Shown piece by piece: positions 20,725-54,151 of a stretch of 64,000 nucleotides of DNA; the first letter of the stretch is position 1, and each line of letters starts with the position of its first letter. Source of the stretch: Alitta virens (taxonomy: Eukaryota > Annelida > Polychaeta > Phyllodocida > Nereididae). The position numbers and the translations under genes were made by a program. The notes under the pieces are model-generated. The model searched no databases. It worked only from the letters and a program-made list of their open reading frames with translations, and had not been told where the DNA came from. Location: assembly GCA_932294295.1 (NCBI GenBank), contig OW028585.1:15470771-15534770 (forward strand). The letters are read 5' to 3'.

Positions 20725-20753
20725 ATGGATATTCCACCAGGACCAAATAAAAG
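20725..20753 (+). CDS. exon 1 (start codon) of the ankyrin-cGLR gene
   Basis: ATG at 20725 opens a 29-base coding part (MDIPPGPNK plus two bases) before the donor GTAACA. It ends in phase 2, exactly what the next exon at 26914 needs, and joins it as a codon for R. No other start with matching phase was seen nearby. The intron that follows contains a whole YR retrotransposon. This is a tiny exon chosen by phase and position, so it is the weakest part of the model. Confidence 0.45.
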
Positions 20754-26700: not shown

Positions 26701-29700
26701 AGTTTGAGAAATGACAGAAATTATGCTGTAAAAAAAACAGTAAAATTTGTTATTTGTGGTTGAGAGGTGTTATTGTTGAATGTTGGGGGGTCTGATTAAT
26801 TGATAAAATAATATCTCAATTATGGTGACTGCTGGGATTGACTGTAAGTTGCCCACCAAGACGTTACCCAATGTTTGCTGGATGAACATATGTATGACTG
26901 TATTTATTTGTAGGCCTCTTGAAAAAGGATCTGCAAAGGATGGAAAAGTTCCAGAAAATGAAGATGATGAGCCAAAACCCATGTAAAATTACTTCATCTC
27001 TTGAAATGATTCTGAATTGAAATATGCATAGATATATAACTTTGATGAATTGACATGTTCTTGCACATCTGACCATTTCCTTTGGTACATTTCTTTCAGG
27101 TGCTCAATGGGATCGGAGCTCAGTCCACCTCAGAAAAGAAAAAGGGGTTCATTTTTTTATGGAAAAGTTGCAGAAGATGAAGATGATGAGCTGAAGGCAA
27201 TGTACATATCTTTACACATATCTTTTCATGTAATCCATAATATGAACGTTATATTATCATAGTACATGGCCAAATGTGCTACATGCATTTTCCACCTCAT
27301 TTTAATTAGGAAAAAACCGTTTTACATGCGTTTTTTCATCTCATAGAAAACACACGTGGCACATTCGTCCATGTTGTACTATTTACTGCCCAATAGTATA
27401 CAGCTTTTAGATAATTTTGTGACATTTTAGATAGTATTTAAAAACTCATTTATTTACAAAAGCTTTTAGTGATTTCAATCTTTGATTTTATTTCTTAAGT
27501 TAATTTATAACATTTTTGTCTACATTTGTTTTCTCGTATATAGTTAAGTGCCATTGCACGTTCAAAATAATTGTGCACTGTAGAATATTATTAAACATGT
27601 TAAACTTAACTTAGAAGAATAAAATTGACATTCTTATAATTTTTTTCTGAATAACTTCTCTTAAGTTTTTTTGTTAAACAACTTTGGTGCCATAAGTTGT
27701 CCATGTAGAAGTGCAGTTGAATGATGAAATCATATTTAAGAAATGAATATTGTAGATCCTTTTTTTTATGTATTTCAGTGTCTGTCCCTATTCTGTGCCA
27801 TTTTGGGGCATGCCTAAACACTTAATGTTATTTCAAAACACCAACATTACTTCTATAGTAATCTTAATGTTTTTACAAAACACATGTTTATTAACGATTT
27901 GCGGTGCAGCAACATTTTCAATATTGTAACAATAACTATAGAATGTTTCAGAATTTGGTCAATTTAAATAATAACTGTAAACAGACAAACAGCGAAACTG
28001 TTATATTGCTTATAGTACCCAACAAAAACATTTACATAACAACTCAGAAATGCTTAAAGCCCATTCATTACCTGGCATATTATTAGTAAAAATACTTACA
28101 TGGAGCCCCTTGTCCAGATAAACTTTTACAATGAAGTCTAGTCTGTTCACAAAGAAGTCTAGTCTGTCCAGAGGATAGCCCAAGTGTGCGCAAACTACCA
28201 GTCTTTCAGCCAGATCATGTGCACTTCTTTACCAAATACCCCATGACAACCCTGTGGTTTTATATCAGGCTTTTCATTTGTCTGCATAACAGTGTCCTAT
28301 TTACATGCTTTTCTTCTCTTTGAAATCCAGAAATGCATATCATATAATGCTTTCACAACAATCATGACGTCACCATTTGTTATTTTAGCATAACATTACC
28401 ATACCACCCTAGCCTTTTCAACCTACGGTAAAATTTACAACTGTGATCAGCTCATGAAGACTAAATTATTACACTTTTGCATACATACTGATTCATATAT
28501 ATTTTAAGGATAATAATTTCTGAATGGTCAAGCCCAGATAGCAATCCAAATCGTTTTGACGGTCGGCCCGTTGTCAGCGAAGCCAAATGATATAGAAACG
28601 AAGCTGGCCCGATTTGGAATGCTAGCTGGGAGGCTACCAGAATAAACAAAAGTGACTTAATGCTTCATCAGTTGACAGATTTGTGCAGTTACTCATCCAT
28701 CATCTCCGCTGCTACTGTTTGATTCATAATAAATTACACATGACAATTATTATCAGGTGTTTGGAGATCATAGACAAGCTTGAGGAAAAGCAAGACCTGG
28801 ATGACAAGGGACAAAGAATTCTGGACTTACTCGCAGAAGGTGGTACAAGTATTCTGGATGGAGACTCAGAGGTGTTCTTGAAGATGGTCAGAAAAGCTGG
28901 CAGACTGATAGAATCAACATTCTACTGTGAGATAATACAGGTACATCAGAGATGTGTAATGCATGGATTGTTGTGAGAACATTGAATTTGAGAAATATTT
29001 AAACTATGCAACTTAAAAAATATTTTTATAGTCTTTTACAAACTAGATTTAGAAAGATATATATAACGAATTTAAAATTCTGCTCTCTACAATTAAAGAA
29101 ATTTCTGTTGGAAGCCACACCCAAAAGTTCACTAGTGTGATTGATATGTGAAAACTTAGTCTATTAATTAAATGTAATTTCCTGGACCATTTTGAATTTC
29201 ATCATTATACTTGACTCTGGCAGTTGGTCATATAAGAATTGATAATGAATACTTTACTTATTAAAATTATCATTCAACAAATTTATTTTGTAGAAAATGG
29301 CTGATGTCTACATGAGAATCCCAAACAAGGTGCAGAAAGGCCCTTTGGACTGTTTAGTGCAACAGATGGATGACAAGAAGACCTTGAGATCATTCGTAGA
29401 GAACCAAGGGAATTTCTTGTCAATGGTCAAGGTTAGTCACTCAAAAGTCAGATTAAACTTAATGATAATGAAAACTGTACAGAAATATTAGTGTAATTTC
29501 TACATAAGCCAGCTCATGAATGTCCCAGGTTTTTTTCAATTTATTTATAGATATATTTTTCTTGGTGACACATTCTTAAACAGAAAGTTTTTAATGTGGC
29601 CCAGATATATAAAAACAAATACATAAAAACAATTGTAGCATAAAACAAAAAAAAAAACACTATACAGTTGCAGTTGAACCCAATATGTCTTTTGAACAGG

Positions 29701-32700
29701 GGCAAGCAAAACATCCCAGTTTTAAGTAACATGGTGTGAACTCCAAGTCCTACTGTTTCATCATTATACTTGCCTCTGGTGGTTGGTCATATAATCTGGC
29801 TGATAAGATTCAGACCAGTAGCATTGAGACATTGACATTGACACAATTACCAGCACTTCATTGTAAGTCACTCATCTTAATGTTCTCCCCATCTATAGGA
29901 GCAGACAATTATCATCAGATTCTCATTTTGTAAATGATTAATCACTACTTACTCACACCAAGATACTATACTGACATCTGAATGGCAACAAAATAGTGGT
30001 CAGTTAAGAACGACAAGGTTGTAATCCATCTGGGTTCAAGTTGACGGTCTCTAGCTTTAAAGCAAATCATCCCTTCAAATGCCTCTTGTCATTTGCTAAT
30101 AAAAAAAGATAAAAAAAGAAATACAAATCATTTTTAGTTTCTGAGAAATTAAGGGATAACATTTTTGGTATTTTGAAGGTCATAATGTCCATTTTTATAG
30201 ATGTTGTTTTCTGATGTTATCAGATTTGTGGTCAACACCACAACTTGAGTTATAACATAAAACCCTCTATTTAGGGCCATTAGAGGGTGAATACATGTAT
30301 GGCAGATTATTTCATATGAGATGAGAGATAATTTTGTCTTGCACCATCGACTATTAATAAAGTTTATCTTATCTTATCTTATGAAACTAGGTGAAATTCC
30401 ATGGAACTTGTCTGTAAATGTTAAAGAAGGGGCGAGAGTGTTTTCACCAAAATCAGAGCTGACCCCCAAAACTAAGCTGGAAGATTCCCTTTGAAGAATT
30501 GCACCCAAAATATTGACTTATTATTTAATTTAGCTTTCTTCATTCCTGCAGATGCTGACACCTACAGAAATCAGTGTAAGCTCATGGTGAGTGTAACATA
30601 TTAGTACATGGTTTAGCATTGATCTTGAGTAACTGATTAATTAGTATATGAGATGATATGAATGCTGAAAGTAAATGATTTGCACGACTAGATGACTTGA
30701 GCAATACCTTGTTCAAAATGCTTTTAATTTATGAATCTTTATTTTAGGAGCAAGTGTCTCCAGGTTGTCATCATGAAGTCAGAGTATGAACATACAGCAT
30801 CAGAGTCATCATTCAGGTGCATTAAGTGGACAGAAGAATTCCTGACTACTTTGAAACTTCTGCTTGAGAAAGGGGCAGATCCAACTTGGATACCCCAAGA
30901 GCAGTTGGAGACACTTGACAGGAAAGGTCGATGCTCTGCTCAGTATGGGTTTTTCAGGGCCATCAAGTATGTTCTTATGTACAAGAATCACCTTTTCAAT
31001 TACTTAATGGAAGTCATGCCCCTGTTTCTGTCTCCTAAAGGTTTGACCAATGACCATCTCCATAACACTTCACTACATGATCTTGTGGCACCTGACTGGG
31101 AATGGCTCACTGAAGAGCTTGAACATTTACCAGATGATTTCTTTCAGCAATATAAAGAAGTTATATCCAGACTCATAGAGCATGACCCTGCCATTGTTGA
31201 TATGACTGACTCTGATGAAGATGCCCCATTGCAGTGGTTTATCAATGGTATGAAACTGCCGGAGGACATCTTAGAAAATGTCAGAGACATTGTACGTTTA
31301 CTAAGATCAGATAAAAACATAGCCAATAAGAACACTGAAGGAAAGAATTGTTTGCATTACCTTGCAGAGTCATTTCCTATATTTGTTAAACCTGTCTCTC
31401 AAAATGGACACGAGACATTTCTTGATCTTGTCAAGTACTTGATATCTGATTCAAGCATTGATGCCCAGGATGACAATGGACAAACAGCCTTACATATATT
31501 GGCAGAAAAATACAAGAAAGATATTCCAGAGCATAGCCTCAGTATTTACTGGGAGCTTGTTAAGAGATTAGTAACTGATTCAAACATCAATGTTCAAGAC
31601 AACCAAGAATGCACCGTTCTTCATATACTCATGAGACAAGTGTTTTGGGATCCATGCATAGGAAAGCATATATTGCCACATCTTCAGACAATCACAACAT
31701 CTCAAAATGTGAATGCTCAGGACAAACATTCAGTGACCCCATACAGCTGGACCCTGAGAGGGAAGTTGGAATATCAGGAAGATGGCTCAGATGCCGGTGG
31801 AATCTTCTCTGATATTGAAAAGATCTTACTCAGGAATGGTGCAAATGCTGATCTTGCAAGAAGAGGATTTCCTTTTATTCAGTAAGTAGACTTTATAAAG
31901 GATATATTTTTTATACTATCTAAAATATCACAGAAACATGCTTTTAAGGTAAGTGGGAGTGGGTAGATTAGGGCTTTGCATCCTGTATTTCTGCACCAGT
32001 TGGGCTAACTAGGACAGGCAGGGACCATGGCAATGAGATGATGGATGAAACAGCCATCCAACTTAGGCTCGACCAGGAATCAAACCTGGGACCCAGTGGT
32101 TGGAAACCCAGTAACTCCCAATGTGCTACCACTGAGGCCCCCAGCCCCATGCATAAATATAATTGAACAACTGTAGTTTTATTAATATAGCTGTATTTTA
32201 TGTGAGACTTGTTAATATGATAGGAAATACTTCATTATTTTTGCACTAGGCCGTAACATACATAAATGATGGAAACATGCATTGACATTTTAAGTGACCC
32301 TGCTAAGTTTAATCACAGTAGTGAGGCATTAAACCGAACCAGAGTGTATTCTTACTTAACTTACAATTTGTAAATAAATAATGGCAGATGCTTTGAGTGG
32401 TTTGGCTAAATTGATACTTGGCGCTATTAACTAGGAAATATACTTTACTCGATTCAGAAAGTTGTAACAAATGATACATAATAATTATTATCAGGTGTTT
32501 GGAGATCATAGACAAGCTTGAGGAAAAGCAAGACCTGGATGACAAGGGACAAAGAATTCTGGACTTACTCGCAGAAGGTGGTACAAGTATTCTGGATGGA
32601 GACTCAGAGGTGTTCTTGAAGATGGGCAGAAAAGCTGGCAGACTGATAGAATCAACATTCTACTGTGAGATAATACAGGTACGTCAGAAATGTGTAATGC

Positions 32701-38700: not shown

Positions 38701-41700
38701 ACCAGTTGGGACAACTGTTTCATTTATAAAAATCTTGTTCTGATGTCTCTCACCTCATAAAACCTACATGCATTACCTGTCTGTATACCATGCACATGGT
38801 ATCTGTCTGTCTGCCACAAAAAAAAAGAAAAAAAAGAAGATAAACTGGCCATGCAATCCCTGGTTTCAATTTCAGTAAGCAGAAAATTGTGCATTTTTCA
38901 TGACCACAAAACTGTTTTGAAAATATCGAAGTTTGACCAGGTGCGACAAAATGCGCAGACACTTGTTGCTTGAAGTAGATGTAATATTTCTACTGATATA
39001 TGTTTAACATTTTTTGTTTGTTTAAGGACGTCCGCTGAGCAGTCGTAGGAAGCCCCAAAAAAGTCGCTACTGGCTTCTCAATGACCCGCCGGTCGTTTTC
39101 CAGCCAAGCAGTCAAGGGACGTCCCTCTAACGCTCATAGAAACCCTTTTTATGTGATAACAGCCACGAGTGAGCACGTGTAGTCCCTTCTTGATGGCTGT
39201 GGTCACTTGTCTCTCTTAGGAGTTTGTGATAGTGCGAACTGGGCTTAAGAGACCTGCTTCCTCAGTCAACTGATGATGGTGCTCTAAATCATCTGCCATC
39301 TAATGTGCTGTTGTTTTTATTCGATATCAGAATAATGTGGTCGTTTTTTTGTTTCAGGAATTGGGAGATCACAAAAATCACCGAGGTCATAGAAAAAAAG
39401 CAAGAATTGGATAAACAAGGGAAAAGAATTCTGGATTTACTTGCAGCAGGTGTAACTGATATCCTGGAAGGAGACCCACAGCTTTTTTTGAAGATGATCA
39501 GAAAAGCTGGCAGTCTGTTAGAATCGCCACTCTACTGTGAGATAATACAGGTATGTTTGATGTGTAATGCATGGATATGAAATTATTGTAAGGACACTAA
39601 TTTGAAATATTTTAACTATGCAACTCAGTTTCAGTCTTGTATTTATTTATATCTTTTACCCATACACTTAACATAAAGTATGTATTTGAAAGTGGCCAAA
39701 TATCAACAAAACAATATTTAGAAAATTACAGTTTACAAACTGGATTTAGAAATATTTATTGTAAAAAGGGGTCATCCTTTTTTTTTTTTCTTAATACAAT
39801 TTTCAAGTACAGTCAAATCTGCCCCTGTCCAAATATTGGCATTTCAGCTAATCCTTATACTTTCCTTAATCTTTCTTACACTCTAAAAATTCAAAGAATT
39901 TTAAAATAAAAAAATCTGAAAAAAAAAGAGAAATATTTACTAAGCTTATCCTTGATGTCCTTTTTTATCATTTACCTGTGTAGTGAATTAGAAAATCAAT
40001 GCACCTGTGTGTTCCAAGCAGCATTGATAATTCAAAGCAGCATTTAGTCATTTATTTTGTCAAATTAAAGATGCTCTTTCTAAATTAGATGACAGTTTTA
40101 ACCCTCAGCGAACAAAGTGTGAAGAGGGCCGATTATTTTTATCCCTTGGAGAAATCTATATCCGTCTGATGGGTGGGCGGTGTAACACTTTCGTTTCCAG
40201 AGCAGAACACTATTACACTTACCCTGACAAAAGTTTGTACCGAAATACTCTATATGACCTAGTGGTGCCTTTTGATAGTCACATTGACGTATGTCGGCTA
40301 TGTTTTACAAAATTTGGAAAAAATTGACAAAAAATAGTTTTTTAGTTTCCAGAACTTTGCCATAACTGTCTAAAATAGTGTAGTGGTGCCTTTTGGGGGT
40401 CTCATGGCTGTAAAATACCAGAGAATTATTAAAATAAGGAAAAAAAAATTATAAAATGTGCACTTAAATATACTAAATAATAAAATATATCCTGTTTGGG
40501 TCCTGTGCTTGGCCAAACCCAGAAGATTTTAGTTAACTCTCATAACATAGTCAATCAGGTGAATGTAGTATACAGCTGTACAATAGCTACAATAAAAACT
40601 TTTCAGCACATGTATAATCTTGTGTATTTTACCTTTGATTTAGTATTTATTTCTGCCTTTTTTCATTTTCCATGCACATGCCAATTACTGATATTAGAAA
40701 TGAAATATAATATGCTATATTTCAAGCATTCAACTGTAAGCTAATGTAACTGAAACTGATAATAAACAGTCTGTACTAATCTAATTGCAGTTCAATAAAT
40801 GCCTTTTGCAGAAAGTGGCCGATGCATATGTGAGAATCCCAAACAAGGTGCGGGAAGGCCCTTTGGACTGTTTGGGGCATCAGATGGACGATGAGTTTAT
40901 CATGCTATCATTCGTAGAGAATCAAGGGAAATTCTTGTCACTGGTCAAGGTAAGTCACCAAACAAATCTGACAAAAAGTTATAAAGAAGATGATTATTCT
41001 ATGACCTTCACGTAATCTCAATATTTCATTGGAATTTTTCTCATTGTATTCCTCACACTTAGGAGAACAATGAAGAAAAGTTAACATAGTGAAATTGTCA
41101 TGAAAATTACTTTCTTACTCAATAGCTCTCAATGATGATCTAGATGTCCATCATTAAAGGGGTACTAACACCTTCAGCACTTTATCTCTCAGATATTAGC
41201 TTGGGTCCATTAAAACACATCCACGCTATTCATAACTTGTATATATGCACTGCTAATGAAATATCCTGCATTTATTAGCTCTGTGTTGTGAACCACGGAG
41301 GCTGCCATTTTGGACTATCCCGGGTGTTTTGCACCAGCCGGAAATACGTCACTGTTGTACTGGTGAGAACTGAAGAGTTTCAGAAACAGGTGTTAATTGC
41401 ACTTGAGCTCTTAATTTGTTGAGAACATGTCACTGGTTATCACCAAGTGTCAAGTAAACTGCTATTGAACAATTTGAGACAATGTACATAAGTAACTCAT
41501 TTATGCATGGACAATTAATTAAAAAGAATTACGGCCCTTTCACCTTGATCTCATGCTGAGAAATATTGATTGAAGTCAATTGACTTTGTAATACAAATAT
41601 TGAATGCTTGGATAACTGAGTACTATATAGATAGGGGGCCTATATTTATATATAAACTCACATGGAAAAAAAGGAAAAAATCATAAAACAGTTTATATAA

Positions 41701-44700: not shown

Positions 44701-47700
44701 GACACAAAATGGATGAAACAAATTTCAAAATAAATCTTAAACGGTAAAAGTACAACAATTAAGATATGTTATGCAAAATTTCACTTGCTGTCTTTAATAT
44801 GGGGTTTGAAAGAGTACCAAATTTTCATATTTTCCCCCTATTACAAAATTATATATCATTAATGGTCATGGAATCCTAAAAATCTGTCTCTAATCTATTT
44901 GAGACATATCTATTTTTTTGTCATAATTTTGTAAAAGACAGCAGAGATATGTCGATGTGACCATCAAAGGGCACAACTAGGCTATATAGGGTAATACCAT
45001 ATGAAATTGTGTTGGGTAAGTGCATTAGCAATGATTAGTGCCAGAGTTCTGCTTCAGAAACTCAATTTTTCAAAATATTTAGCATTTTTTTTAGATATTC
45101 CGTTAGTATAAAAACAGCATATTATTTAGATATTTTATTTACACAATTTCATTCGTGTTGGGTAAATCGTGTTTTTGATATGGGGGTATGAAAAAGTAAG
45201 AATTTTCCTTATTTTCCCCTCATTTTAATAATTATCTTGTACTTCATGAGACCCCCAAAAGGGACCACTACACCATTTTAAACATATTATAGCAAAGTCT
45301 TAAGCATGTAGGACATTGTAGGTGCAGTAGTGTCAGAGTTCTGCTCCGAAAACAAATATTTTTTTTCAAATTTTTCCAAATCTTGTAAAACATAGCCAAC
45401 ATATGTCAATGTGACTATTAAAGGCACCACTAGACCATATAGAGTATTATTCTACAACATTTTGTTTGGTTAAGTGCATTAGTGTTTGAGTTCTACTGCA
45501 GAAACGAAGGTGTTATGCTCGCCCGCCCACCCACTTGCCCACTGTCGGATGGACATAAATTTTTGTTCGCTGAGGGTTAAAAATGATTGAAATGCAATAT
45601 TGCTGTGTCATAGAAATCAAGTAATTTCAATCCAATCAGAGCCAAAACCTTTTTTATTTTCTGAAATAATGAAAAGTAACCCTTTAGCTAAGTTTGTAAC
45701 TTGCACTTGCACATTTTGCAGTAATTTAAATATTTGACTTTTTATGCAGATGTTGATTACTGCTGGCCCGATTATGTCAAGGTTTGTACTGTTCACATTT
45801 TTTGAATTTTCTTCTGGTGTTTGTTTCATAAAATAATGTATACCATAAATGATTGCTTCAATGTATATCTTACAGGTCAAAGGGCCTCAGGCTGCTCATA
45901 ATGAATGCAGAATATACATCTGGGAGGCGGAAGGATAAACTCAAGTGGACAGATGAGTTGATAGTCACATTACAAGTGTTGCTTAATGAAGGAGCAGATC
46001 CAACATGGATACCAGAAGGTCAAGATGAATCTGCTCTTTACATATTTTACCAGGGAGTTTTCCCTATCCTTGCCAATAGACAGCACCTTACAAGTGCATT
46101 AATGAAAATTCTTCCATTCTTCCTGACTGAGAAATGTCTCAACCACAAGGAACCTAAAGGTACTGTGCTTCATGCATTGCTCAACTGGGATGAGCTCAAC
46201 CGGGAAGAGACTTTTCTTCCTGAAGATTTACCAGCTGAAGTGTTTGAGCACTATAAGAAAATTGTTTATGGAGTTATCAAAGGAAATCCTACTCTGCTTG
46301 GTAGTACAGAAGCACTAGGAAGAACTGTTTTGTATATCTTTGTGGAAGGTATATTTAGACATCCAAATGAAGCACAAGGATTGTTTTCTCTCTTTCCTGA
46401 TCTCATTACACCAGAGAATGTGAATGCCAGAGACAAACACTCAGTGACACCATACTCCTGGATTCTGGTTGGGTTAGCCAGATGGGAAAATGACCCAGGC
46501 ATGAAGAGGATGTTCTCACAGATGGAAGAAATATTGCTCAGCAAAGGGGCAGATAAAGTTCTTGGGCAGGTTGCATTAGAAGTTCCAACGTAAGTATCTA
46601 ATTACTGGGTCAGGGTCGGTCTTAGGGTGTGCAAGGCCCAATGCGAGGCCTATGGATCCCACAGTTTTTACTTTCCTGAAAAAATCTGAAGACCTTTTAA
46701 TCTTTTTTTTTAGTCATCAACTGGGCCTATTTAGGCAAGAGGCCCAATGCAGCCACCTTGCTCGCATTGCCCTAGGACCGGCCCTGTACTGACTTTTATT
46801 GGACAGAGAGACAGCTAGACAGAGAGACACAGCATTATTTTATTTGATAATAAGTTTACATGTGTACACGTTTACAAAACAAAAGAATTGCTGGTTGTAT
46901 AATGGTGGCTGGAGACATGTGCAACGGCCAAAGGCCACAGACTTTTGTAATTTTTATAGTTTATTCCAGCATCAGACTAAATAAATGCAGATACCACATA
47001 CATGTTGGCCTACGGTGCATTTTAGGGGTAAAATTGTTTTTATATCTGTGTTCAGAGCAGGGTTGGCAAATTTAACCCACCCACCGGGTTTAACCCGGGG
47101 TTAGACCGACATGGGTTGGGCTATATAAACATTTTGCATTAAGTGGGGTTAAAGCTGAGTTAAAACCCATAATTTAATTAATAAATATTTTCATTGAATA
47201 TGGTTATCTATGCTATAATTTGTTTTGAGTGATATTACAAGATAAAACCTGTAGAAAAGAATATTAATATTTCAGGTACTGAATATTATTTTATTTGATA
47301 CATTCTAAAACATAATGTTTAATTTTGCAGACTGAGATGGATTGAGCAAGAATTTGGAGCTGAGAAATGGACACAGGAGAGACTTGATAAGTTGCTGAGT
47401 TTGACGAAGACTGTGAAAAACTGGGAATCACACTCATACAAGATGAAACTGAATTATACAGCCAAGAAGAATTTGAAGGAATTGAGCAATCCAAGATTCA
47501 TGGGCATTGTGATGGACATAGTGAGGATTATTGTGAAAAACAGATGCTCTGCACAACATGTATGGCATGCAATATACCCTGAAAAGGATTATGATTGGTT
47601 CAGTATTAAATTGATGGTTGTGGAAATGCTGATTGTGTGTGCAGAGGGTGGAGCACAGCCCACAGATAATCAGCTGGAAGCGATTCTCTCAAGGACCAAA

Positions 47701-50700
47701 AAACTAACAAGGAGTGAAGAGTGGACTGTGTCATACTTGAAGATTCTTGTTTCACTGAGCAGAAATAAGTATTTTACTCATGATAATATTTTAGATTCTA
47801 ACTTTGATCTGAATTTCCTGGGAGAATTTTATACAGTTTCTAAGGACATGATTCAGTCAGGAAGGGAGCTGGTGCATTTGAGGTACAACACATGGGAAAA
47901 ATGTTTGAAATCAAGAAAACTGATCAACTGCTTTCTTTTTATTACAAATGAACAAGAAATATTTAGTGAAGAATTAATAGAAAAATCGTTTAAAGAGATG
48001 TGCCTGCAATGGAAATACTCGGATGGAACATTCGATTACTATAACTGGATGAAAAGGAGTCCCCTTCATCTGGCTGTTATATTCCTTGACTCTCTCAAAT
48101 TTCTTCCTCCTAAGATAATCAAGAAATACATTGAAGAAACAGACGTGCATGGGTGCACTCCTTTGCATGTGGCAACCTTGCACCGCAATGAACAAGCAAT
48201 TCAATTCCTATTATGTTTTAGGAATAATGAAAATGCTGCTGATCGATTTGGATTTACCCCACAAGATCTTGGAAGCCGCACTAGAACATCTGATGATTAC
48301 GATGTGAGCGATTCATTACAAGAACCCCACCCTGACGTCAGACATAAAGAACTGTGTCGTGAAGTAATAGTAGCAAATGAAGGACTTCTTGAGAAAATGA
48401 AACCGATGCTAGTCTTATCAGAAAAAGAAGCGGAAGATTTAAGTGATGAACTTGTGAAACTTTTCGAGCGCTTGGTCGAAATGACGCAATTTAAGGAAAA
48501 TGCTAAAATTAAAATTTGTGGGAGCATGAGGGAGAAATTGAAGAGCGGCCGACTGGATGAAGGGGATTTACAAATAAAGCTCCCTGCGTATTTTGATAAT
48601 CAGGGTCCGTCAATTGTATATATTGCAGGAGTGGAGTGGGATAGACGTCAACTCCTTATGGAACTGCATTTGAGTCTGATAGAGGCCCTAGGCAGGATCA
48701 GCTGGGAGGGCATTGACCTCAGACCAGTTTGTGTCACAGGTCCTTGGAAGTTGATCAGAGAAGGAAATGGTTCTTGTAAAGGAATGGAAGTTTCTCTCGA
48801 TGCAGTCGCTGTCCTTTTTGAAGAGGAAGATAATGAAGATGCAGAGAGATTGCGGGGAGAGATGTTGGAGGGTGATCTTCTTCCTCTGCACAAAACCATG
48901 TGTTTCTCAACACTGCAAACATGGAATGATGACAGAATTAATCAATTTAATTTGACTTATTTTGCATTTGAGTGGGACATGATCGACTGCCTCCCTCCAT
49001 GTTGTCGGTTGGCCATTGTTATGTGTAAGGCCCTAGTTCAGGTGAGTTAACTTATTGTATTTAATTTATTAAATTGTTGAAAAAATCAAAGATGGCTGAC
49101 AAAATTCAAGATGGCTGCCGATCATTAATTTTTACACTTGTTATGACTTGTGATGTCACAGGCCTTGAAATTGTTATGGTTGTCATGGTTACCCTTAAAT
49201 TAATAACACAGAATAAATAGTGTTTTAACTAGGCAACATATATATCTTTTTTGTGTGTGTGACACTGTGTATTTATAATACTGGGATGCTGACCAGGGAC
49301 ATTTATTTATTTGCTATGCTTTAATTAATCTTATTGAATTATATGTAGTCATGTGATGTTAAATTTAATTGTATCAAAGAATTACATGTAGTCGTCACCT
49401 GATACCGGAAAATTCATTTAGCAAAAATATCATTGGTTTTGCTGGAACCCTAACCACAATTCTTTGAACATCACAGAAAGTATTTTGTTGTCTTGCACTT
49501 CTATTCAATAAGCAGAAAATAAGTTAAACTGCATTTTGATTTTATTTCAATAACTTATAATAATGGGCCTAATTTTATGATTACCGTGTACCATAGCAAT
49601 AATCACGACAGGCATTTTAGAACTATAACAGATATAAAGCCCTCAGAAAAAATTGAACAAAATAACAGAGGGATATTGAGAGAGTTCTGATTCGAGTTGA
49701 CAAAATAATTTTTGGGGGGAAATGGTGACGTCACTTAGTGTTCCATTTGAGCATGGCGCTGCGTATTTCAGCAAACAGTGTGTTACTCATTCTGGTTGTG
49801 GTTGCTTCTTCTGTTCTCTGTGCACAGATTAGAATGTAACACAAATAACAATTAGAAATAGCCAAATAATTAACTGCAAAAGACAATAGTGCAAGATGGC
49901 GCCTGTGGTCTGTGGATACTTTGTCAGTAATACTATCCACTACATGACCAAATGTGCCACGTGTGTTTTCCATGAGAAGGATAAACGCATGGAAAACGCT
50001 TGGTTTTAGCTAATTATAATGAGGCAAAAACCATGCATTTTCCATGCGTTTATCCAAAAGTCATAGGAAAAATGCACGTGGCACTATTGGCCATGTATGA
50101 TAACAGCAATTATATGCCAAGTTAAAAATAAGAAAGAGAGAAAACTTGCGTGGATACCTGGCTTTACAGATATATAGGAAAGCTTCAGAATGTAGTTCAA
50201 AGCGATGTCACCGATAAAGCGTGTGTTGGGCTGTATACTCCCAAGGGAGCTGAGTTTGAGGCCAGGGGAGCTGCTGTATCCCACTTAATGGGCTCTTTAA
50301 AATAGTGCACTATTTGCTCACTAAGACTTGTTAGAATCCAATCTTCAGGTTGCCAATAAAGGCCATGTGCCCCAGTATACATTTACATTAGTTTATCTTT
50401 TAAAATAGCATAATTGTTTTATGCTTTAATGGAATTATTATTCCATGCACATCGTATGAAACTGTTACTTGACTTGAAATGACTTGATAATTTGGAATGT
50501 CATATTTTAATATCCAATCATCAGCTAAATTACTTTTTTGATCATTAAAATTTAAAGTGTTAATAGCTTTTGTAATCCACAATGCACACATACCCACATA
50601 GTTCTGTTAGGTTTTTTCAATAAAGTTGATTTAATTAGGTCCAGTATTATTTCTACGGCTTAAATTAACTTTCTATCTATTAGGGTATTGTGCTCTGTGA

Positions 50701-52148
50701 AATGTTTAGTCAGACATATTGCTGACATTATTTATATTTTGTGAAATTATTACAAAAGGGTGTATTGTTTTAATCAAGTTTTTGAATGGAGTATTAGTGG
50801 TTCTATTCAATGATTTTGCTTAACTGAATGGACATGTAGATGCAGTGGAGCTAAAGACTCAGATATTTTACATGTGATAATATAATCTACCTTATAATTA
50901 AAGCCCTGCCATAAAAGTTTAGCTCATTATGTGTGAGTATAGAACTTCACCTGACCACAGCCTTGCTATTAAAGGCAGAACATCAAAAATCCCATAATGT
51001 TAATAAATAATGTATAAATCTACCTCAATTTAAAGACCTCACTTTTAAAGACACCTCACAATTAAGAATGCTCAAAGAGGAAAAATAATTGTACATGGGT
51101 GAAATCTACATGGGTCCCAAAAATAGGAAGCAAATGTCCCATATTGCCATTTAGGAGAAAATCTAATGTCCCATTTCACTTTTTAACTTAATAAACTATA
51201 ACTAAGCATATAAAACATGTCATCTGTCTATTTTTAAGAATATATTTCTCTTATGTCCGTCATTATTTAAGAACTCTAGTGTCACTTTGTCCCTAGTTAA
51301 GAAAGGCTATGTCGCAATGTCGATTTTGTCAATTTTTACCCATGTAGACCCCTAAATAGCAAGATTCTGTTGTGATATCAAATAATGATAATTTTATAAT
51401 CCTCAAGGTTCTAATAAAGTTTAAATATTCAATGTTATTCTTACCATTAGAAAATAAACAACTATTAAATAGCAAATAGGTCTTTAGAATCACACGCGCT
51501 AAAAATACTGAATAATTCATAACAATCATGTATGGTAAATGTTCTTGTATTTTGGTCAAATGTACAGTTGATTTTATCTATTTGCATTAGATGTGTTTCT
51601 TATATGTCATCCTGTATTATCTAATGTATGCATATATTTTCTTGTATTTGCAGGCCTATGACTGGTGCACAGGGGAGAAGGTGCATGTCAAAATGCCCAT
51701 CACATCATACACCATAAAGACTGCCCTCTTCTACCTCTTTGGTAACCGGACTAGTCAACTTGAAATGAAAGCAGATCTCTACAACAGAGAAAGCTTTGAG
51801 GCAACCATACAGGCATTTAGGAATGCATTGGGCCATGTGGACGGCCAAGTTGAAAAAAGAAGGAACAAGTTGGAATTCCAGCCACATCCCAAATGGACAA
51901 CTGATGAAGACTTGCAGCTACACGGAGAGGAAGCGAGAGTTTGGGCCTGCAAGATTTTCTCGCTGATCAAACACCTTGCAGAACAAGGGTGGAAACTGAA
52001 CAACTACTGGGACAGAATGGAGCCTGTTGTTGAAATAATGGATGAAGAGCGCAGAAGAGGGTTTGGAGAGGCTGAGTATATCTGTGATATTTGTGACTGT
52101 GCATTAGATCGCCTGAAGAAAAATACATTCGGAGTCAACGTTAAATAA
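20725..52148 (+). CDS. ankyrin-repeat cGAS-like receptor (Mab-21 nucleotidyltransferase), 17 exons, 2398 aa
   Basis: Joined exons: 20725-20753, 26914-26982, 27100-27201, 28757-28940, 29294-29431, 30552-30586, 30748-31881, 32495-32678, 34779-34916, 36218-36252, 36396-38261, 39358-39550, 40812-40949, 45750-45781, 45876-46589, 47331-49041, 51654-52148. All introns are GT-AG, all phases agree, and the sum is 7197 bases, exactly divisible by three. The product has a short acidic leader with a basic patch (residues 1-67), three helical-plus-ankyrin cassettes (67-564, 564-1305, 1305-1664), a helical part and canonical ankyrin repeats (1664-1980), and a Mab-21/cGAS-like enzyme domain (about 2000-2340). 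GS at 2061-2062, E2074, D2076 and D2154 match the catalytic residues of cGAS-like receptors, which make cyclic nucleotides on sensing nucleic acid or other ligands. The cGAS zinc ribbon is not seen. Exon 1 is the least certain. Ligand, product and expression are unknown; two shorter genes are possible but phase continuity argues against it. Confidence 0.72.
21065..21113. repeat. direct repeat flanking YR retrotransposon copy A, left
   Basis: A 49-bp stretch with AAAATGATCCCCACCAGAAC recurs with few differences at 26136-26185, on the other side of retrotransposon copy A. It could be an element terminal repeat or duplicated flank. Confidence 0.7.
21231..21480. repeat. 3' part of copy A, also present inverted at the right edge of the window
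   Basis: Sequence from the AGTAATACTATGTAACATAA stretch to about 21480 recurs as its reverse complement at about 63640-64000, there with an extra 110 bp at about 63781-63893. Confidence 0.8.
21490..21850. repeat. 54-bp tandem repeat in the 3' part of copy A
   Basis: CACCTGGCATGGCCGGAGTG recurs with a 53-54 bp step near 21612, 21665, 21719, 21773 and 21822, with weaker copies at about 21500 and 21545. The long minus-strand open frame across it (about 163 residues, rich in Pro, His and Ser) is best seen as a by-product of the repeat. Confidence 0.75.
22185..22560 (-). pseudogene. tyrosine recombinase N-terminal fragment, copy A
   Basis: Following RNase H, the minus strand encodes the core-binding part of a tyrosine recombinase. 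A first piece ends near 22390 (VCLFITHLHQK) and continues one frame over as TYMSAISFIHKLHH and FLVSKALHGVQ down to about 22210. The catalytic R-HxxR-Y half is not visible, so the enzyme is truncated. Confidence 0.6.
22517..23265 (-). pseudogene. RT C-terminal part and RNase H, copy A
   Basis: The frame of 228 residues starting at 23203 reads through the RT thumb (KSLIGKLQFSTTVIP) into RNase H, with SDVSKTGFGA, ELYPVNVI, FYTDN and CDLISR marking the four acidic sites; the first is changed from DAS to DVS relative to copy B. The RT palm with motifs A to C is missing because gag sequence is joined directly near 23270. Confidence 0.7.
23268..24880 (-). pseudogene. gag-like gene fragments, copy A, split by an inserted element
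   Basis: N-terminal gag (24494-24880, with MAELLKQQQAAFLSMQ) and C-terminal gag (23268-23757, with FIDLADLLYPLQAQ) are separated by the 800-bp element at 23762-24561. Relative to copy B, about 48 bp is missing near 23524 (residues after LTPKRK), and the zinc-knuckle end is deleted together with the RT palm. Confidence 0.65.
23762..24561. mobile_element. piggyBac-like non-autonomous element in gag of copy A
   Basis: TTAA at 23758-23761 and 24562-24565 flank an 800-bp insert absent from copy B. Its ends are inverted: AGGCCGGGGGTCCCG and CCCCTAGTCCCCCGGCCT. The interior has no transposase; it includes AT-rich sequence and a short GATA-like repeat near 24130-24165. TTAA duplication is the piggyBac signature. 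Confidence 0.8.
25100..25445. repeat. leader tandem repeats (GTCGGCACC units), copy A
   Basis: TGTCGGCACC followed by a GAGTGGAGACA-like motif recurs roughly every 65-75 bp between the SGNH gene and gag. The same array is present in copy B at 55310-55680, so it is part of the element. Confidence 0.75.
25490..26110 (-). pseudogene. SGNH-hydrolase-like gene, copy A, frame-broken
   Basis: From the ATG at 26110 the frame keeps GHSFIHG (Ser block), GARV, and QYGSNDI (GxND block), then breaks near 25760. The C-terminal block with SQWSRDDIHP is in another frame near 25610. It is the damaged relative of the intact frame at 55727-56353. Confidence 0.65.
26136..26185. repeat. direct repeat flanking YR retrotransposon copy A, right
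   Basis: This is the counterpart of 21065-21113 (core AAAATGATCCCCACCAGAAC), in the same orientation. Copy B diverges from copy A exactly where this repeat begins. Confidence 0.7.
26370..26524. mobile_element. long-palindrome MITE, copy 2 (best palindrome)
   Basis: From TACATGGCCAA to TTGGCCATGTA the 155-bp element folds on itself almost throughout: AAAACGCATGG and CCATGCGTTTT, CTCATTATAATGAG at the centre. TA is present at both ends. It has no coding capacity. It lies in intron 1 of the receptor gene. Confidence 0.75.
26914..26982 (+). CDS. exon 2 of the ankyrin-cGLR gene (acidic leader)
   Basis: The acceptor TTTATTTGTAG and donor CAT|GTAAAA bound 69 bases, phase 2 on both sides. It encodes residues 10-33, charged and low in complexity, with ENEDDEPKP near its end. 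This ending resembles the end of exon 3 (EDEDDELKA), so the two exons may be an old duplication. Confidence 0.6.
27100..27201 (+). CDS. exon 3 of the ankyrin-cGLR gene (basic patch)
   Basis: A good polypyrimidine tract and TTTCAG precede 102 coding bases, phase 2 to phase 2. It encodes residues 33-67 with QKRKRG, a possible nuclear localisation signal, followed by an acidic run EDEDDE. The last codon, ATG, is split across the junction with cassette 1. Confidence 0.65.
27263..27376. mobile_element. long-palindrome MITE, copy 3 (short, diverged)
   Basis: It starts TACATGGCCAAATGTGC and ends near GTCCATGTTGTA, with the same inner CATTTTCC/AAAACACACGTGGCAC features as its relatives. The central part is shortened. 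Confidence 0.55.
27380..28530. other. intron 3 of the ankyrin-cGLR gene
   Basis: This is AT-rich intron sequence between exon 3 and the first cassette. No coding part or mobile element is recognised until the palindromic MITE at 28533. Confidence 0.4.
28533..28630. mobile_element. palindromic MITE, copy 2 of the 105-bp family
   Basis: The ends are CCCAGATAGCAATCC and GGAATGCTAGCTGGG. The inner part TGATATAGAAACGA and CTGGCCCGATTTGGAATGC is shared with 19545-19649. It lies in intron 3 of the receptor gene. Confidence 0.65.
28757..28940 (+). CDS. exon C1, cassette 1 of the ankyrin-cGLR gene
   Basis: The acceptor TTATTATCAG and donor GTACAT bound 184 bases (phase 2 to 0), residues 67-128. It encodes a helical segment with EKQDLDDKGQRILDLLAEGG and FLKMVRKAGRLIES. 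I recognise no named domain. It is almost identical to exon C2 at 32495-32678. Confidence 0.8.
29294..29431 (+). CDS. exon D1, cassette 1 of the ankyrin-cGLR gene
   Basis: Exactly 138 bases (46 codons, phase 0-0) between TTTTGTAG and GTTAGT encode residues 129-174, including MADVYMRIPNKVQKGPLDC. The length is the same in all three D exons. No named domain is recognised; it looks helical. Confidence 0.8.
30365..30383. repeat. ATCTT microsatellite in an intron of the ankyrin-cGLR gene
   Basis: There are four copies of ATCTT in a row, in the intron between exons D1 and E1. Confidence 0.7.
30552..30586 (+). CDS. mini-exon E1, cassette 1 of the ankyrin-cGLR gene
   Basis: A 35-base exon between CTTCATTCCTGCAG and GTGAGT (phase 0 to 2) encodes MLTPTEISVSS plus the start of a W codon completed by exon F1. 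It is supported by its counterparts at 36218-36252 (same length) and 45750-45781, and by the need to bring phase 0 to phase 2. Confidence 0.75.
30748..31881 (+). CDS. exon F1, ankyrin block of cassette 1
   Basis: 1134 bases (phase 2-2), residues 186-564. It starts after ATTTTAG and ends TTCA|GTAAGT. Early on it has EFLTTLKLLLEKGADPTWIP, the end of an ankyrin-like unit. About five more elongated ankyrin-like units follow, of which DDNGQTALHILAEK and the following SLSIYWELVKRLV are typical; units are about 43-50 residues rather than 33 because of an insertion between the helices. The last unit ends LLRNGANADLARRG. The five extra 43-residue repeats of exon F2 are absent here. Confidence 0.85.
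31968..32145 (-). mobile_element. tRNA-derived SINE fragment
   Basis: Read on the minus strand, GGCCTCAGTGGTAGCACAT (32120-32138) resembles a tRNA A box and GGTTTGATTCCTGG (32073-32086) a B box, about 50 bases apart as in tRNA genes. There is no full cloverleaf, so it is read as the head of a SINE. It lies in the intron between cassettes 1 and 2. Confidence 0.55.
32495..32678 (+). CDS. exon C2, cassette 2 of the ankyrin-cGLR gene
   Basis: 184 bases, residues 564-625, between TTATTATCAG and GTACGT. It is nearly identical to C1; within the exon I note FLKMGRKAG where C1 has FLKMVRKAG. The first codon is completed by the last two bases of exon F1, so cassette 1 splices straight into cassette 2 in frame. 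Confidence 0.8.
32925..34715. other. extra intron sequence in cassette 2
   Basis: This 1.8-kb stretch lies between exons C2 and D2 and is absent from cassette 1. It has no protein-like frame. At 33390-33470 it resembles 150-275 and ends in an A-run, possibly a retroelement tail. A TA microsatellite lies at 34641-34658. Confidence 0.5.
34779..34916 (+). CDS. exon D2, cassette 2 of the ankyrin-cGLR gene
   Basis: 138 bases (phase 0-0), residues 626-671, between TTTTTGTAG and GTAAGT. Apart from one L-to-M change (KKTMRSF) it encodes the same residues as D1. Confidence 0.8.
34920..36210. other. intron between exons D2 and E2
   Basis: Most of this intron matches the D1-E1 intron. A stretch at about 35190-35330 has a B-box-like GGTTTGATTCCTGG at 35250-35264 and is not in cassette 1, so it is probably another SINE fragment, here on the + strand. 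Confidence 0.45.
36218..36252 (+). CDS. mini-exon E2, cassette 2 of the ankyrin-cGLR gene
   Basis: 35 bases between TCTTTCAG and GTGAGG, phase 0 to 2. It encodes ILIPTEFRESS plus a split W codon. It is more diverged from E1 than the C and D exons are from theirs. Confidence 0.75.
36396..38261 (+). CDS. exon F2, ankyrin block of cassette 2 with expanded repeats
   Basis: 1866 bases (phase 2-2), residues 683-1305, between CTTTAG and TTCA|GTAAGT. Near its start is an acidic Ser/Asp/Glu tract (36446-36570) built from an 18-base unit. The ankyrin block follows: LLEKGADPTWIP, several elongated units, one diverged 43-residue unit at 37204-37332, five near-identical 43-residue units at 37333-37977, and the same closing units as F1 (DKHSVTPYSW). 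Each repeated unit carries the ankyrin TxLHxLA motif followed by a second helix. The frame is open throughout, and the repeat length of 129 is a multiple of three. Changes between repeats are few. Confidence 0.88.
36446..36570 (+). repeat. 18-bp coding repeat (acidic Ser-Asp tract)
   Basis: TCAGAATCAGATGGATCA-like units repeat in frame, encoding SESDGSESDGSESDESESDE. Exon F1 lacks this tract. It could be a flexible linker or a phosphorylation target (CK2-like sites); that is inference. Confidence 0.8.
37333..37977 (+). repeat. five tandem 129-bp ankyrin-coding repeats
   Basis: AAGGACGTACTGTTCTGCAT starts at 37340, 37469, 37598, 37727 and 37856, an exact 129-bp step. Units differ by only a handful of bases, for example CACAATATT becoming CACGATATG or CACGATATT, and ACTGATTCA becoming ACAGAATCA. 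Residues 996-1210 of the model. Confidence 0.95.
38265..39350. other. intron between cassettes 2 and 3
   Basis: There is no gene here. GGACGTCC motifs in opposite orientation near 39027 and 39118 bracket a GC-richer 100-bp stretch that may be a small mobile element. An A-rich run lies at 38816-38840. Confidence 0.35.
39358..39550 (+). CDS. exon C3, cassette 3 of the ankyrin-cGLR gene
   Basis: 193 bases (phase 2 to 0), residues 1305-1369, between TTTGTTTCAG and GTATGT. It keeps the core KRILDLLAAG and FLKMIRKAGSLLES of C1 and C2, but is three codons longer at the start and clearly older. Exon F2 joins it in frame. Confidence 0.8.
39640..40095. other. intron after exon C3
   Basis: This is AT-rich with a T-run at 39778-39790. 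No gene or element is recognised. Confidence 0.35.
40102..40480. mobile_element. TTAA-CCCTCAGCGAAC repeat, left arm
   Basis: TTAA (40098-40101) is followed by CCCTCAGCGAACAAAG. The arm contains the CACTTTCGTTTCC/GCAGAAC motif and CTAGTGGTGCCTTTTGATAG, and it is repeated in inverse orientation at about 45200-45576. Internally the GTGGTGCCTTTT motif occurs twice, so the arm itself is made of repeated units. Confidence 0.65.
40812..40949 (+). CDS. exon D3, cassette 3 of the ankyrin-cGLR gene
   Basis: 138 bases (phase 0-0), residues 1370-1415, between CTTTTGCAG and GTAAGT. It shares RIPNKVREGPLDCLG and SFVENQGKFLSLVK with D1 and D2. It lies between the two inverted arms at 40102-40480 and 45200-45576. 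Confidence 0.8.
41158..42474. mobile_element. piggyBac-like non-autonomous element, 1.3 kb
   Basis: TTAA at 41154-41157 and 42475-42478 flank inverted ends AGGGGTACTAA and TTTAGTTCCCCT. No transposase frame is present inside. It lies in the intron after exon D3. GC-richer parts near both ends (41290-41360 and 42270-42330) contain TACGTCAC and GTGACGTCAC, CRE-like motifs. Confidence 0.7.
42480..43670. other. intron sequence after exon D3
   Basis: This is AT-rich; I see no exon or recognisable element in this part. Confidence 0.35.
43679..45576. mobile_element. CCCTCAGCG-family element(s) with inverted ends
   Basis: A + strand terminus CCCTCAGCGAATCCCTC at 43679 and an inverted terminus GTTCGCTGAGGG ending at 45576 (followed by TTAA at 45577-45580) bracket 1.9 kb. 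Inside, 44118-44440 matches the reverse complement of 16985-17280. At 44880-45060, 45230-45350 and 45350-45500 there are repeated units with GTAAAA(C/G)A(C/T)AG and CACNACTAG motifs. No transposase is found. The left flank is not TTAA, so the true pairing of ends is uncertain. Confidence 0.5.
45750..45781 (+). CDS. mini-exon E3, cassette 3 of the ankyrin-cGLR gene
   Basis: 32 bases between TTTATGCAG and GTTTGT (phase 0 to 2) encode MLITAGPIMS plus two bases. It is one codon shorter than E1 and E2 but keeps the phase change. The donor GTTTGT is weaker than the others, so the exact end carries some doubt. Confidence 0.6.
45876..46589 (+). CDS. exon F3, ankyrin-like block of cassette 3
   Basis: 714 bases (phase 2-2), residues 1426-1664, between ATCTTACAG and CAAC|GTAAGT. 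It shares KWTDELIVTLQVLLNEGADP and WIPEG with the other F exons, and closes with RDKHSVTPYSWILVG and EEILLSKGADK. Between them lie about two elongated ankyrin-like units (GTVLHALLNW, GRTVLYIF). It is the oldest and shortest of the three F blocks and lacks the 43-residue repeats. Confidence 0.85.
46611..46786. mobile_element. hAT-like MITE just after exon F3
   Basis: Inverted ends CAGGGTCGGTCTTAGGG and CCCTAGGACCGGCCCTG are nearly perfect. The flanks TACTGGGT and TACTGACT (46603-46610, 46787-46794) agree in six of eight positions, fitting an older 8-bp duplication. It begins only 21 bases after the donor of exon F3. It is related to the element at 11684-11876. Confidence 0.75.
46800..47325. 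other. intron sequence between exons F3 and G
   Basis: No exon is seen. Near 47076-47160 there is a GGGTTTAACCCGGGGTTA-type motif with short inverted parts, perhaps a small mobile element end. Confidence 0.35.
47331..49041 (+). CDS. exon G: ankyrin repeats and Mab-21/cGAS-like nucleotidyltransferase core
   Basis: 1711 bases (phase 2 to 0), residues 1664-2234, between TTAATTTTGCAG and GTGAGT. Residues 1664-1900 are helical and unassigned. Residues 1907-1980 are canonical ankyrin units (SPLHLAVIFLD, GCTPLHVATLH, FGFTPQDLG). The nucleotidyltransferase core follows: GSMREKLKSG with GS at 2061-2062, then DEGD with E2074 and D2076 in the place of the NEFD motif of human cGAS, and EVSLDAV with D2154 in the place of its third acidic residue. 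PPCCRLAIVMCKAL near the end begins the C-terminal helical half typical of Mab-21 proteins. All catalytic positions look intact, so activity is plausible but unproven. Confidence 0.85.
49050..49935. other. intron sequence after exon G
   Basis: No exon or clear element is seen in this part. GTGACGTCAC-like and AAGATGGC motifs occur near 49080-49160 and 49725-49740. Confidence 0.35.
49941..50097. mobile_element. long-palindrome MITE, copy 4
   Basis: From TACATGACCAAATGTGCCAC to TTGGCCATGTA it is colinear with 26370-26524, including AGAAGGATAAACGCATGG and the central TTATAATGAGGCAAAAACCA. TA lies at both ends. It is in the last intron of the receptor gene. Confidence 0.75.
50100..51645. other. 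last intron of the ankyrin-cGLR gene, remaining part
   Basis: This is AT-rich, with no exon-like frame and no element that I recognise. Confidence 0.35.
51654..52148 (+). CDS. exon H: C-terminal Mab-21/cGAS-like helical half, stop codon
   Basis: 495 bases, residues 2235-2398, from TTGTATTTGCAG to the stop TAA at 52146-52148. It completes the enzyme's C-terminal lobe. SYTIKTALFYLFG (residues 2252 onward) matches the conserved S-Y-x-x-K-T-x-x-x element of Mab-21/cGAS proteins. The rest is helical and ends without a known motif. AATAAA overlaps the stop codon at 52144-52149. A retrotransposon remnant begins about 66 bases later, so the 3' untranslated region is either very short or runs into the element. 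Confidence 0.83.
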   Translation, partial: AYDWCTGEKVHVKMPITSYTIKTALFYLFGNRTSQLEMKADLYNRESFEATIQAFRNALGHVDGQVEKRRNKLEFQPHPKWTTDEDLQLHGEEARVWACKIFSLIKHLAEQGWKLNNYWDRMEPVVEIMDEERRRGFGEAEYICDICDCALDRLKKNTFGVNVK

Positions 52149-52213
52149 ATAATTCTTTAGAGGGAAGCAGAGTAAATGTCGTATATATGCATTGAGGCAA
52201 ATACACTGCACTA

Positions 52214-53480
52214 GATGGTGCAGCTTATGAATAAAAGATATGGCGGACATGTAGGTCTTGATAGTCCGGTATTGCAGGCCTTTTTAGTGGAGGTGTGTTA
52301 TAAATAAGCACACATCGTGTGGGGATGATGGAAATTGGAGTTCCTTATGAAGTGTGTTTGAGTGAAACAAACGAAATGCATTCCAATTTCTCTGGTAAAT
52401 ATCTGCTGTGGAAGTCTGGAGGGAGGCTTTTAGCAGCTTGTGAAACTCAAGATTGAAGTTTGCTGGTGTTAGGTGTGGTGGAACCGGCGTAGGGGATGGC
52501 AACATCCCATATTTGCTGAGGAGCTCCTTGGTGACAGCCTGTCGAGAAATAAGATCACATAATGTGTTATTTACGCCAGGAATATGCTGAGCAGTAAGAA
52601 GGATGTTATGCTGCAAAAGGACTAAGACAAGTGGGCGCAGTATCTGCATGATAAGGGGACATTTGGAAGTTTGATTATTTAAGATGTAAACAACAGCTAT
52701 GTTGTCTGTGTAGAAGAGGATATTGCTATTTTGGAGCTTTGTAGCAAACATGGCTATAATAAAATAGACGGGGTAGAGTTCGAGTACTGTGATATTGAGA
52801 TTCTGCCAAAGTGGGGGCCAAAGGCCCTGTATCCACCGGGAACCGTAGATGGCGCCAAATCCGGTTTTTGACGCGTCAGAAGCTAGCTTGATGGCCGTGG
52901 ACTCGTAGCTGTATCTTGGCTTTATCATGGTAATGCCATTGTGATGTGCAAGGAAATCTGACCAGGTGGCTAAGTCGAGTTTCGTGTCCTTTGTTAGGGT
53001 TACATAGTGAGCAGGGTTCTTGATTCCTTTTGTGCGGTCATGGAGACGCCTCAGGAAAGCTCGCCCACAGGGGATGACTGTTGTTGAAAATTGTAGTTTG
53101 CCAATAAGTGATTTCAAGTCTCTTAATGTGAGGGAACATTTAGTTAATGCTATTTGGAGATCCTGGTGATATTGTGTAAGCTTAGTTGGTGGTAATCGAG
53201 CCTGCATGGCCAGAGTGTCAAGTTCAACGCCTAAAAAGGTAATTGTAGTGGATGGGCCATCTGTTTTATGTGGTGCTATCGGTACATTAAGGTAATGGCA
53301 CAATGATTGGAAGGTGTTAAGATCTCGTAAGCACCGTTCGTGTGTTGGTTGGACAAACAGGAAATCATCTATTACCTTAACAGTAGATGTGAGGCAGTAT
53401 TTTGTTTGAAGAATCCATTGAAGGGCTGAGGAGAAAGCCTCAAATATGCGGCATGATGGTGCAGCCCCCATACTTAGCAT
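52214..53480 (-). pseudogene. RT palm/thumb, RNase H and recombinase N-terminus, copy B
   Basis: A 398-residue frame begins at RT motif B (MLSMGAAPSC), contains motif C as VIDDFLFV, and continues through the thumb to an RNase H with SDASKTGFGA, ELYP, FYTDN and CDLISR. It ends with the first helices of a tyrosine recombinase core-binding domain (LLKASLQTSTADIYQRNW, FITHLH). A point change makes a stop in HLH|TAA where copy A reads on. The reading frame upstream is joined through a one-base shift near 53485. Confidence 0.75.
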
Positions 53481-54151
53481 TTTTTCATAATATACTTTCC
53501 ATCAAATTGGAAACCAAGTAAGTGGTAATGTGATGGGCTGACAGGTATTATCCTGAATGCGTCTGCTATGTCGCTTTTAGCTAGATAGGCATTGGGAGAG
53601 TGATGGTGAATAAGTTGTATAGCATCATGGAGTGATTGGTATTTAACAGTTGTATATGAGCGGTCTATGTTATAGTTGAATGAATTAATATCGTAGGGGT
53701 AGGAGAGATTATGAAGTAATCGATACTTTCCAGGGGTAGACTTTTCACGGAGGGCAAGCGGGGAACATTTAAAGTTGGGGAAGGGCGGAGTTGTGAATGG
53801 GCCAGCTATGCAGCCAAGAGCAAGTTCATGTTGAATCTTTTGTTTGACTATGTCCGGCAAGTCGAGCACTGTTTGGGAATTCTTAGATTGGAGTGGGATA
53901 TTTGGCCCATCAAAATGTAGGGAAAAACCTTGGACAAAGCCATTTACTATGTAGTCATGGTGTGGGTAACCCTGCAAGAGGTTACTTAGTCTCCTTGCGT
54001 TTACCGGAGTTGGAAGGGTGGTGTCGGTTGTGGGAGTCAGTGGAGTGGTCCTGGCGATATGGGCATCTGTTGGTGTAGCAGGGCTGGAACATTGGGTGAT
54101 TACGGCCACAGTTGGCACAAGTGTGGCGGTAGGTGCATTGCTGGTTTTCAC
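53474..54151 (-). pseudogene. reverse transcriptase N-terminal half, copy B
   Basis: A 225-residue frame overlapping the end of gag contains LPDIVKQKIQHELALG, GPFTTPPFP, and motif A as AKSDIADAFRIIPV. It runs into a stop just before motif B because of a one-base frameshift near 53485. This half and the next together make the usual RT fold of DIRS/Ngaro elements. Confidence 0.72.

Follow-up and report, generated by a model that had tools for sequence, protein, structure and literature searches.

A predicted 17-exon gene of Alitta virens with three repeated modules, ankyrin repeats and a C-terminal region of likely distant cGAS/Mab-21 relationship

According to the accessible part of a recent survey, 87% of cGAS-like receptors (cGLRs) are single enzymatic proteins and some bear ankyrin or TPR modules; ankyrin-repeat cGLRs are reported there from animals including the coral Stylophora pistillata, in which 3 of 42 combine ankyrin repeats with a cGAS-like nucleotidyltransferase (Li et al. 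2023, PMC9980059). The same text recognises a cGLR by a G[S/G] activation loop, an [E/D]h[E/D] motif with hydrophobic h, a third acidic residue 50-90 residues on and a predicted cGAS-like structure. The available portion of a 2021 oyster study describes a TRADD-N protein that combines a Mab-21/cGAS domain with TPRs (PMC8195603), and that of a shrimp study describes three Mab21 proteins that bind neither dsDNA nor dsRNA, do not produce cGAMP and work through IKKepsilon (PMC12928593).

Here we describe a gene in a 64,000-nucleotide stretch of Alitta virens DNA (hereafter the window) that appears to encode a large ankyrin protein ending in a cGAS relative, a kind of fusion already in print. A preliminary description of the locus, which had held such an arrangement to be undescribed, was wrong on this point, since PMC9980059, in the part available, reports cGLRs with ankyrin repeats, S. 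pistillata among the sources. The Alitta protein would share with them the joining of ankyrin repeats to a cGAS-like nucleotidyltransferase; those proteins, however, were gathered by homology to cGAS, as the accessible text has it, whereas the window protein lacks a Mab-21 profile match. With the oyster TRADD-N proteins it would have in common a cGAS domain set inside a large multi-domain immune-type protein, although the partners named in the available part of PMC8195603 are others (HEPN, immunoglobulin, DED-TRADD-N and TPR). A literature search by title and abstract, with subscription journals mostly outside its coverage, found no further papers on ankyrin-cGLR fusions among the entries listed. 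Judged by the published descriptions available, the apparently unusual features are the size of the gene, its tripled module, an enzyme region invisible to Pfam and a paralog fragment lacking the catalytic core.

The gene lies on the plus strand at window positions 20725-52148. We rebuilt it from these two end coordinates by combining open frames, comparison of the repeated modules and splice-site reading (Table 1). The rebuilt model comprises 17 exons with GT-AG borders at all 16 introns, compatible splice phase at 16 of 16 junctions and 7197 coding bases, that is, 2398 codons with a single stop; the exon number, borders, junctions, coding total and stop given in the preliminary description were thereby reproduced exactly.

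Table 1. Predicted exons, repeat array and enzyme-region landmarks, in window positions
Feature	Position	Strand	Evidence or remark
Exon 1, ATG, 29 bases, ends in phase 2	20725..20753	+	donor site and phase only; least certain exon
Exon 2, acidic N-terminal segment	26914..26982	+	splice-site reading, model; resembles exon 3
Exon 3, basic stretch PPQKRKRG	27100..27201	+	splice-site reading, model
Module 1 exon a	28757..28940	+	module alignment, model, dN/dS
Module 1 exon b	29294..29431	+	module alignment, model, dN/dS
Module 1 exon c, 35 bases	30552..30586	+	module comparison, model
Module 1 main exon, ankyrin repeats	30748..31881	+	model; Ank_2 E 1.3e-10
Module 2 exon a	32495..32678	+	module alignment, model, dN/dS
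Module 2 exon b	34779..34916	+	module alignment, model, dN/dS
Module 2 exon c, 35 bases	36218..36252	+	module comparison, model
Module 2 main exon, ankyrin repeats and acidic Ser/Asp/Glu stretch	36396..38261	+	Pfam, model
129-bp (43-residue) ankyrin tandem array, 5.7 copies at 98%	37256..37987	+	repeat search, unit comparison
Module 3 exon a	39358..39550	+	module alignment, model, dN/dS
Module 3 exon b	40812..40949	+	module alignment, model, dN/dS
Module 3 exon c, 32 bases	45750..45781	+	module comparison, model
Module 3 main exon	45876..46589	+	aligns with main exons 1 and 2 at about 28-35% identity; Pfam negative at E<=1
Exon 16, helical/ankyrin region followed by the first part of the cGAS-like region	47331..49041	+	Pfam, relatives, model
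GSMREKLKSGRLDEGD, residues 2061-2076, with the GS loop and the first acidic pair spaced as in cGAS	48520..48567	+	relatives, motif test
Third acidic residue, Asp of SLD, residue 2154	48799..48801	+	relatives, motif test
Exon 17, C-terminal helical part of cGAS-like region and stop	51654..52148	+	relatives, model
SYTIKT, the SY..KT landmark common to cGAS and cGLR1	51705..51722	+	sequence comparison

Exon 1 is separated from the next exon by 6.2 kb that include a retroelement. Exons 2 and 3 show a weak likeness to each other (58% over 19 residues, E 0.005), and the basic stretch of exon 3, judged by eye, looks like a nuclear localisation signal. At the other end of the gene, the join of exons 16 and 17 is confirmed by homology, because in the relative P0001 a single open frame covers the entire enzyme region and reads straight through the join. 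Other relatives have this same boundary, seen from the intron: P0002 reads on beyond the corresponding donor, and in five fragments (P0003, P0007, P0008, P0010 and P0011) intron-like sequence runs into QAYDW. We infer that all modules and the enzyme exons are carried on one mRNA.

Each module is built of exons a, b, c and a main exon, with identical order and phase in all three copies. This agrees with the triple cassette recognised earlier and goes beyond chance: copies of exons a, b and main are present in every module, and a and b align across all of them, their splice sites falling at matching places. In modules 1, 2 and 3, respectively, exon a measures 184, 184 and 193 bases, exon b 138 in every case, exon c 35, 35 and 32, and the main exon 1134, 1866 and 714, the differences always being multiples of three. 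Because every module starts and ends in phase 2, a whole module can be gained or lost without a frameshift.

Modules 1 and 2 seem to have arisen by tandem duplication not long ago. Their exons a are identical at 183 of 184 positions and their exons b at 136 of 138; the introns reach 79-97% identity over six within-module pieces that had been preselected as alignable by BLAST. Exon c agrees at 29 of 35 positions, no better than its introns, so its assignment rests on splice sites, phase and length. Compared with module 3, modules 1 and 2 yield dN/dS values of 0.29-0.48 in exons a, b and main, with synonymous sites of the main exon near saturation (dS 1.7-2.0). Between modules 1 and 2 the ratio is 0.21 in exon b, undefined in exon a (dS 0) and 0.61 in the main exon, the last value suggesting weaker constraint or diversification. 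In most of these module comparisons, exons a, b and main evolve as coding sequence would. Judged from the sequences, module 3 is older than the other two.

Pfam recognises ankyrin repeats above the curated cut-offs in module 1 (Ank_2, 42.1 bits, E 1.3e-10, cut-off 27.3), module 2 (Ank, 101.5 bits, cut-off 21.1) and exon 16 (Ank, 24.8 bits, cut-off 21.1), whereas module 3, from exon a to the end of its main exon, has no match at E<=1; its main exon still aligns with those of modules 1 and 2 (Table 1). The earlier proposal of ankyrin modules followed by a C-terminal cGLR is therefore clear in its ankyrin part for modules 1 and 2 and exon 16, and lacks a Pfam match for module 3. We hold with moderate confidence that ankyrin modules lie upstream of a C-terminal cGAS-like region. 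The 129-bp unit of the tandem array in module 2 encodes a 43-residue ankyrin-type repeat, which exceeds the Pfam unit of 33 residues; two of the five full units are identical over all 129 bases, and every pair shares at least 120. We regard this array as recent, its copy number being probably variable. The same main exon contains a 15-bp repeat (36448-36571) that encodes the acidic Ser/Asp/Glu stretch and is missing from module 1.

Two related retroelement copies occupy 22297-26136 and 52212-56380 on the minus strand, the former inside intron 1 and the latter starting 63 bases after the stop codon; their aligned pieces are 97%, 88% and 92% identical. Pfam finds in them a reverse transcriptase (E 8.6e-5) and a GDSL/SGNH hydrolase (E 1.1e-6), neither of which reaches its curated cut-off, a combination that we take to suggest a DIRS/Ngaro-type element. 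Three plus-strand C2H2 zinc-finger arrays (640-1737, 7047-8318 and 10064-10906) contain 12, 13 and 9 zf-C2H2 stretches with a tandem 84-bp periodicity; like the intron-rich gene, they are what animal DNA would be expected to contain. A minus-strand ORF at 15755-16588 matches the transposase profile DDE_Tnp_4 (E 4.7e-8, above cut-off). Intron 1 (21237-21454) and the last part of the window (63676-64000) share near-identical pieces in inverted orientation, with 99% identity over 112 bases and 96% over 105. Rfam gave no match in the window.

Protein searches returned 17 distinct relatives from ENA or JGI sources, mostly short fragments; none turned up in a scan of viral contigs. P0001, with 752 residues on a contig of 2447 bases, is 47% identical to the enzyme part (E 3.1e-103) and bears ankyrin Pfam matches in the same open frame. 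The last exon has 14 relatives at 44-75% identity, which suggests a multi-gene or multi-species family. One relative, P0017 (a single 147-residue ORF on a 757-base contig), joins the sequence preceding GS directly to that following the third Asp, so that about 190 residues, the catalytic positions among them, are apparently missing; a pseudogene or a misassembly could account for this.

The G[S/G] activation loop is present in the window protein as GS at residues 2061-2062. Its first two acidic residues enclose a glycine (E-G-D), so that [E/D]h[E/D] does not occur literally, whereas P0001 has it as E-A-D; the third acidic residue follows within the published 50-90 residues, with 77 between in the window protein and 75 in P0001. 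The literal cGLR pattern as a whole, found in P0001 and not in the window protein, was reached by 4052 of 20000 shuffles, which makes the third-Asp spacing unspecific. Within the C-terminal part of 734 residues, G, S, E, D and the third D (positions 397, 398, 410, 412 and 490, corresponding to residues 2061, 2062, 2074, 2076 and 2154) are invariant in the three sequences that cover them, and because one of these is about 50% diverged, the GS loop and three acidic residues would seem to be needed. With cGAS (5n6i) and cGLR1 (8gjy), the region shares an identically ordered series made up of the GS loop, the E.D spacing, the third Asp, CR and SY..KT: these proteins read GSYYE..K.....EFD, CR and SYH.KT, where the window protein reads GSMREKLKSGRLDEGD, CR and SYTIKT. 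It departs from them in the glycine between the first two acidic residues and in an overall similarity below the reach of sequence searches. OAS (4ig8, 9h1z), of the same enzyme class, shows the comparable layout GS ... D.D ... D but lacks SY..KT. In shuffles of the window's enzyme region, GS..E..K.....E.D appeared 2 times in 20000, SY..KT 11 times in 20000, and the whole ordered landmark set, which was written after the sequence had been seen, 0 times in 20000.

Pfam returned no family at E<=1 for the last 406 residues, and hence no Mab-21 profile match, the outcome that the preliminary description had named as speaking against its reading. In P0001 and P0002, Mab-21 (PF03281 / PF20266) was absent at E<=10; one of 18 family members matches Mab-21_C at E 0.14, a match that we discounted because unrelated families score better there. 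The enzyme region is not to be classed as a member of Pfam Mab-21. A single-sequence search of PDB sequences with these residues and a profile search likewise found no cGAS/Mab-21 match; the lone match of the profile search, a methyltransferase (E 0.036), was taken as chance. In another profile search, the best 60 of 354 matches were ankyrin or designed ankyrin proteins, or ankyrin-bearing fusions and channels.

Comparison of the family profile with one built from MAB21L1, 8gjy and 5n6i gave an hhalign score of 28.6, a value as high as which came from 1 of 150 column shuffles, at a probability of only 6-9% and with a scored core of only 13 columns at GS. Alignment in forced global mode came out non-collinear (score 5.75), which counts against the relationship; in a loose realignment, GS/E.D, SLD, CR and SY..KT line up in order. 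The OAS profile scored 18.9, reached by 16 of 100 shuffles, and OAS was rejected as the closest family on that score. OAS and Mab-21 are known relatives, yet with the same shallow profiles they score only 17.5 and neither finds the other; the test is thus insensitive, and a low score does not exclude homology. AlphaFold models were too poor for conclusions on the enzyme fold because of too few related sequences: P0001, with a 4-row alignment, reached a mean pLDDT of 42.9, with only about residues 200-340 (ankyrin) mostly at 57-89, and exon 17 with 15 relatives reached 43.3. The Mab-21/cGLR identity proposed earlier thus fails in Pfam but is favoured indirectly by landmark spacing and a weak profile alignment, and the C-terminal region is likely a distant relative of cGAS/Mab-21.

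The main rival to an active enzyme would be a Mab-21-like scaffold that has the fold, does not catalyse and signals through protein contacts, its binding part being the ankyrin array. A precedent is offered by the shrimp Mab21 proteins, which, in the accessible text of PMC12928593, make no cGAMP and take the IKKepsilon route; the glycine in the middle of E.D and the apparent loss of the GS and acidic-residue stretch from P0017 would fit the same reading. Set against it are the invariance of these residues in all three covering sequences, the diverged one included, and the standing of P0017 as a single, possibly degenerate or misassembled fragment, and we regard a scaffold as a tentative alternative, on the unlikely side. 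It seems to us quite improbable that the C-terminal region is not a nucleotidyltransferase at all and matches the motifs by coincidence or very distant convergence. Missing Pfam and PDB sequence matches and AlphaFold models with a mean pLDDT of about 43 are what this would predict, but the landmarks keep their spacing and order, the profile score lies above 149 of 150 shuffles, and the match is stronger to Mab-21 than to OAS by a method that misses OAS against Mab-21 too.

The gene model might also fuse separate pieces, modules 1 and 2 or the N-terminal exons being other transcripts, alternative exons or in part an assembly artefact. Polyadenylation-like hexamers occur between modules too, modules 1 and 2 have nearly identical exons a and b, and a retroelement separates exon 1 from the rest. 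No module, however, has a stop of its own; every main exon ends at a phase-2 donor that fits the next exon, and module 3 continues into the enzyme exon with the phase kept. Between modules 1 and 2, introns differ by 3-21% and main exons differ in length, which does not suggest an uncollapsed haplotype. We judge such a joining of separate pieces to be unlikely.

Our preferred reading, to which we assign a probability of roughly 0.5, is a single protein of about 2400 residues, with a short N-terminus, three four-exon ankyrin modules, a further helical region that contains ankyrin repeats and, at the C-terminus, a nucleotidyltransferase-like domain whose relationship to cGAS/Mab-21 is distant. 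For this domain, a nucleotidyltransferase fold and catalytic activity are predicted. In the working that we propose for this protein, the ankyrin array would bind a microbial or host partner, and binding would relieve inhibition of the C-terminal enzyme or cluster it; the enzyme would then join nucleotides into a second messenger, which a STING-type receptor might read. Since the modules are phase-symmetric (2-2) and recently duplicated, the binding array can lengthen or shorten with the frame intact, and such changes in length would suit a fast-evolving recognition part. A wider proposal, which we put forward as speculative and rather doubtful, is that the gene represents a profile-invisible branch of cGAS-like enzymes, multi-gene in some animals, whose sensor is a large ankyrin array growing by duplication of whole modules and single repeats; the specificity of a nucleotide-second-messenger receptor might then evolve through changes in repeat number, and paralogs with a deleted core could act as decoys or regulators.

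If only the scaffold reading were true, the gene would encode a large ankyrin protein such as has been reported before. If the enzyme reading is true, surveys of cGLRs that rely on profiles or are seeded with cGAS may overlook whole animal branches, and the putative recognition part would be a modular ankyrin array whose duplication is still under way. The locus would then offer a system for asking whether the sensing of something other than nucleic acid can attach to nucleotide-messenger signalling.
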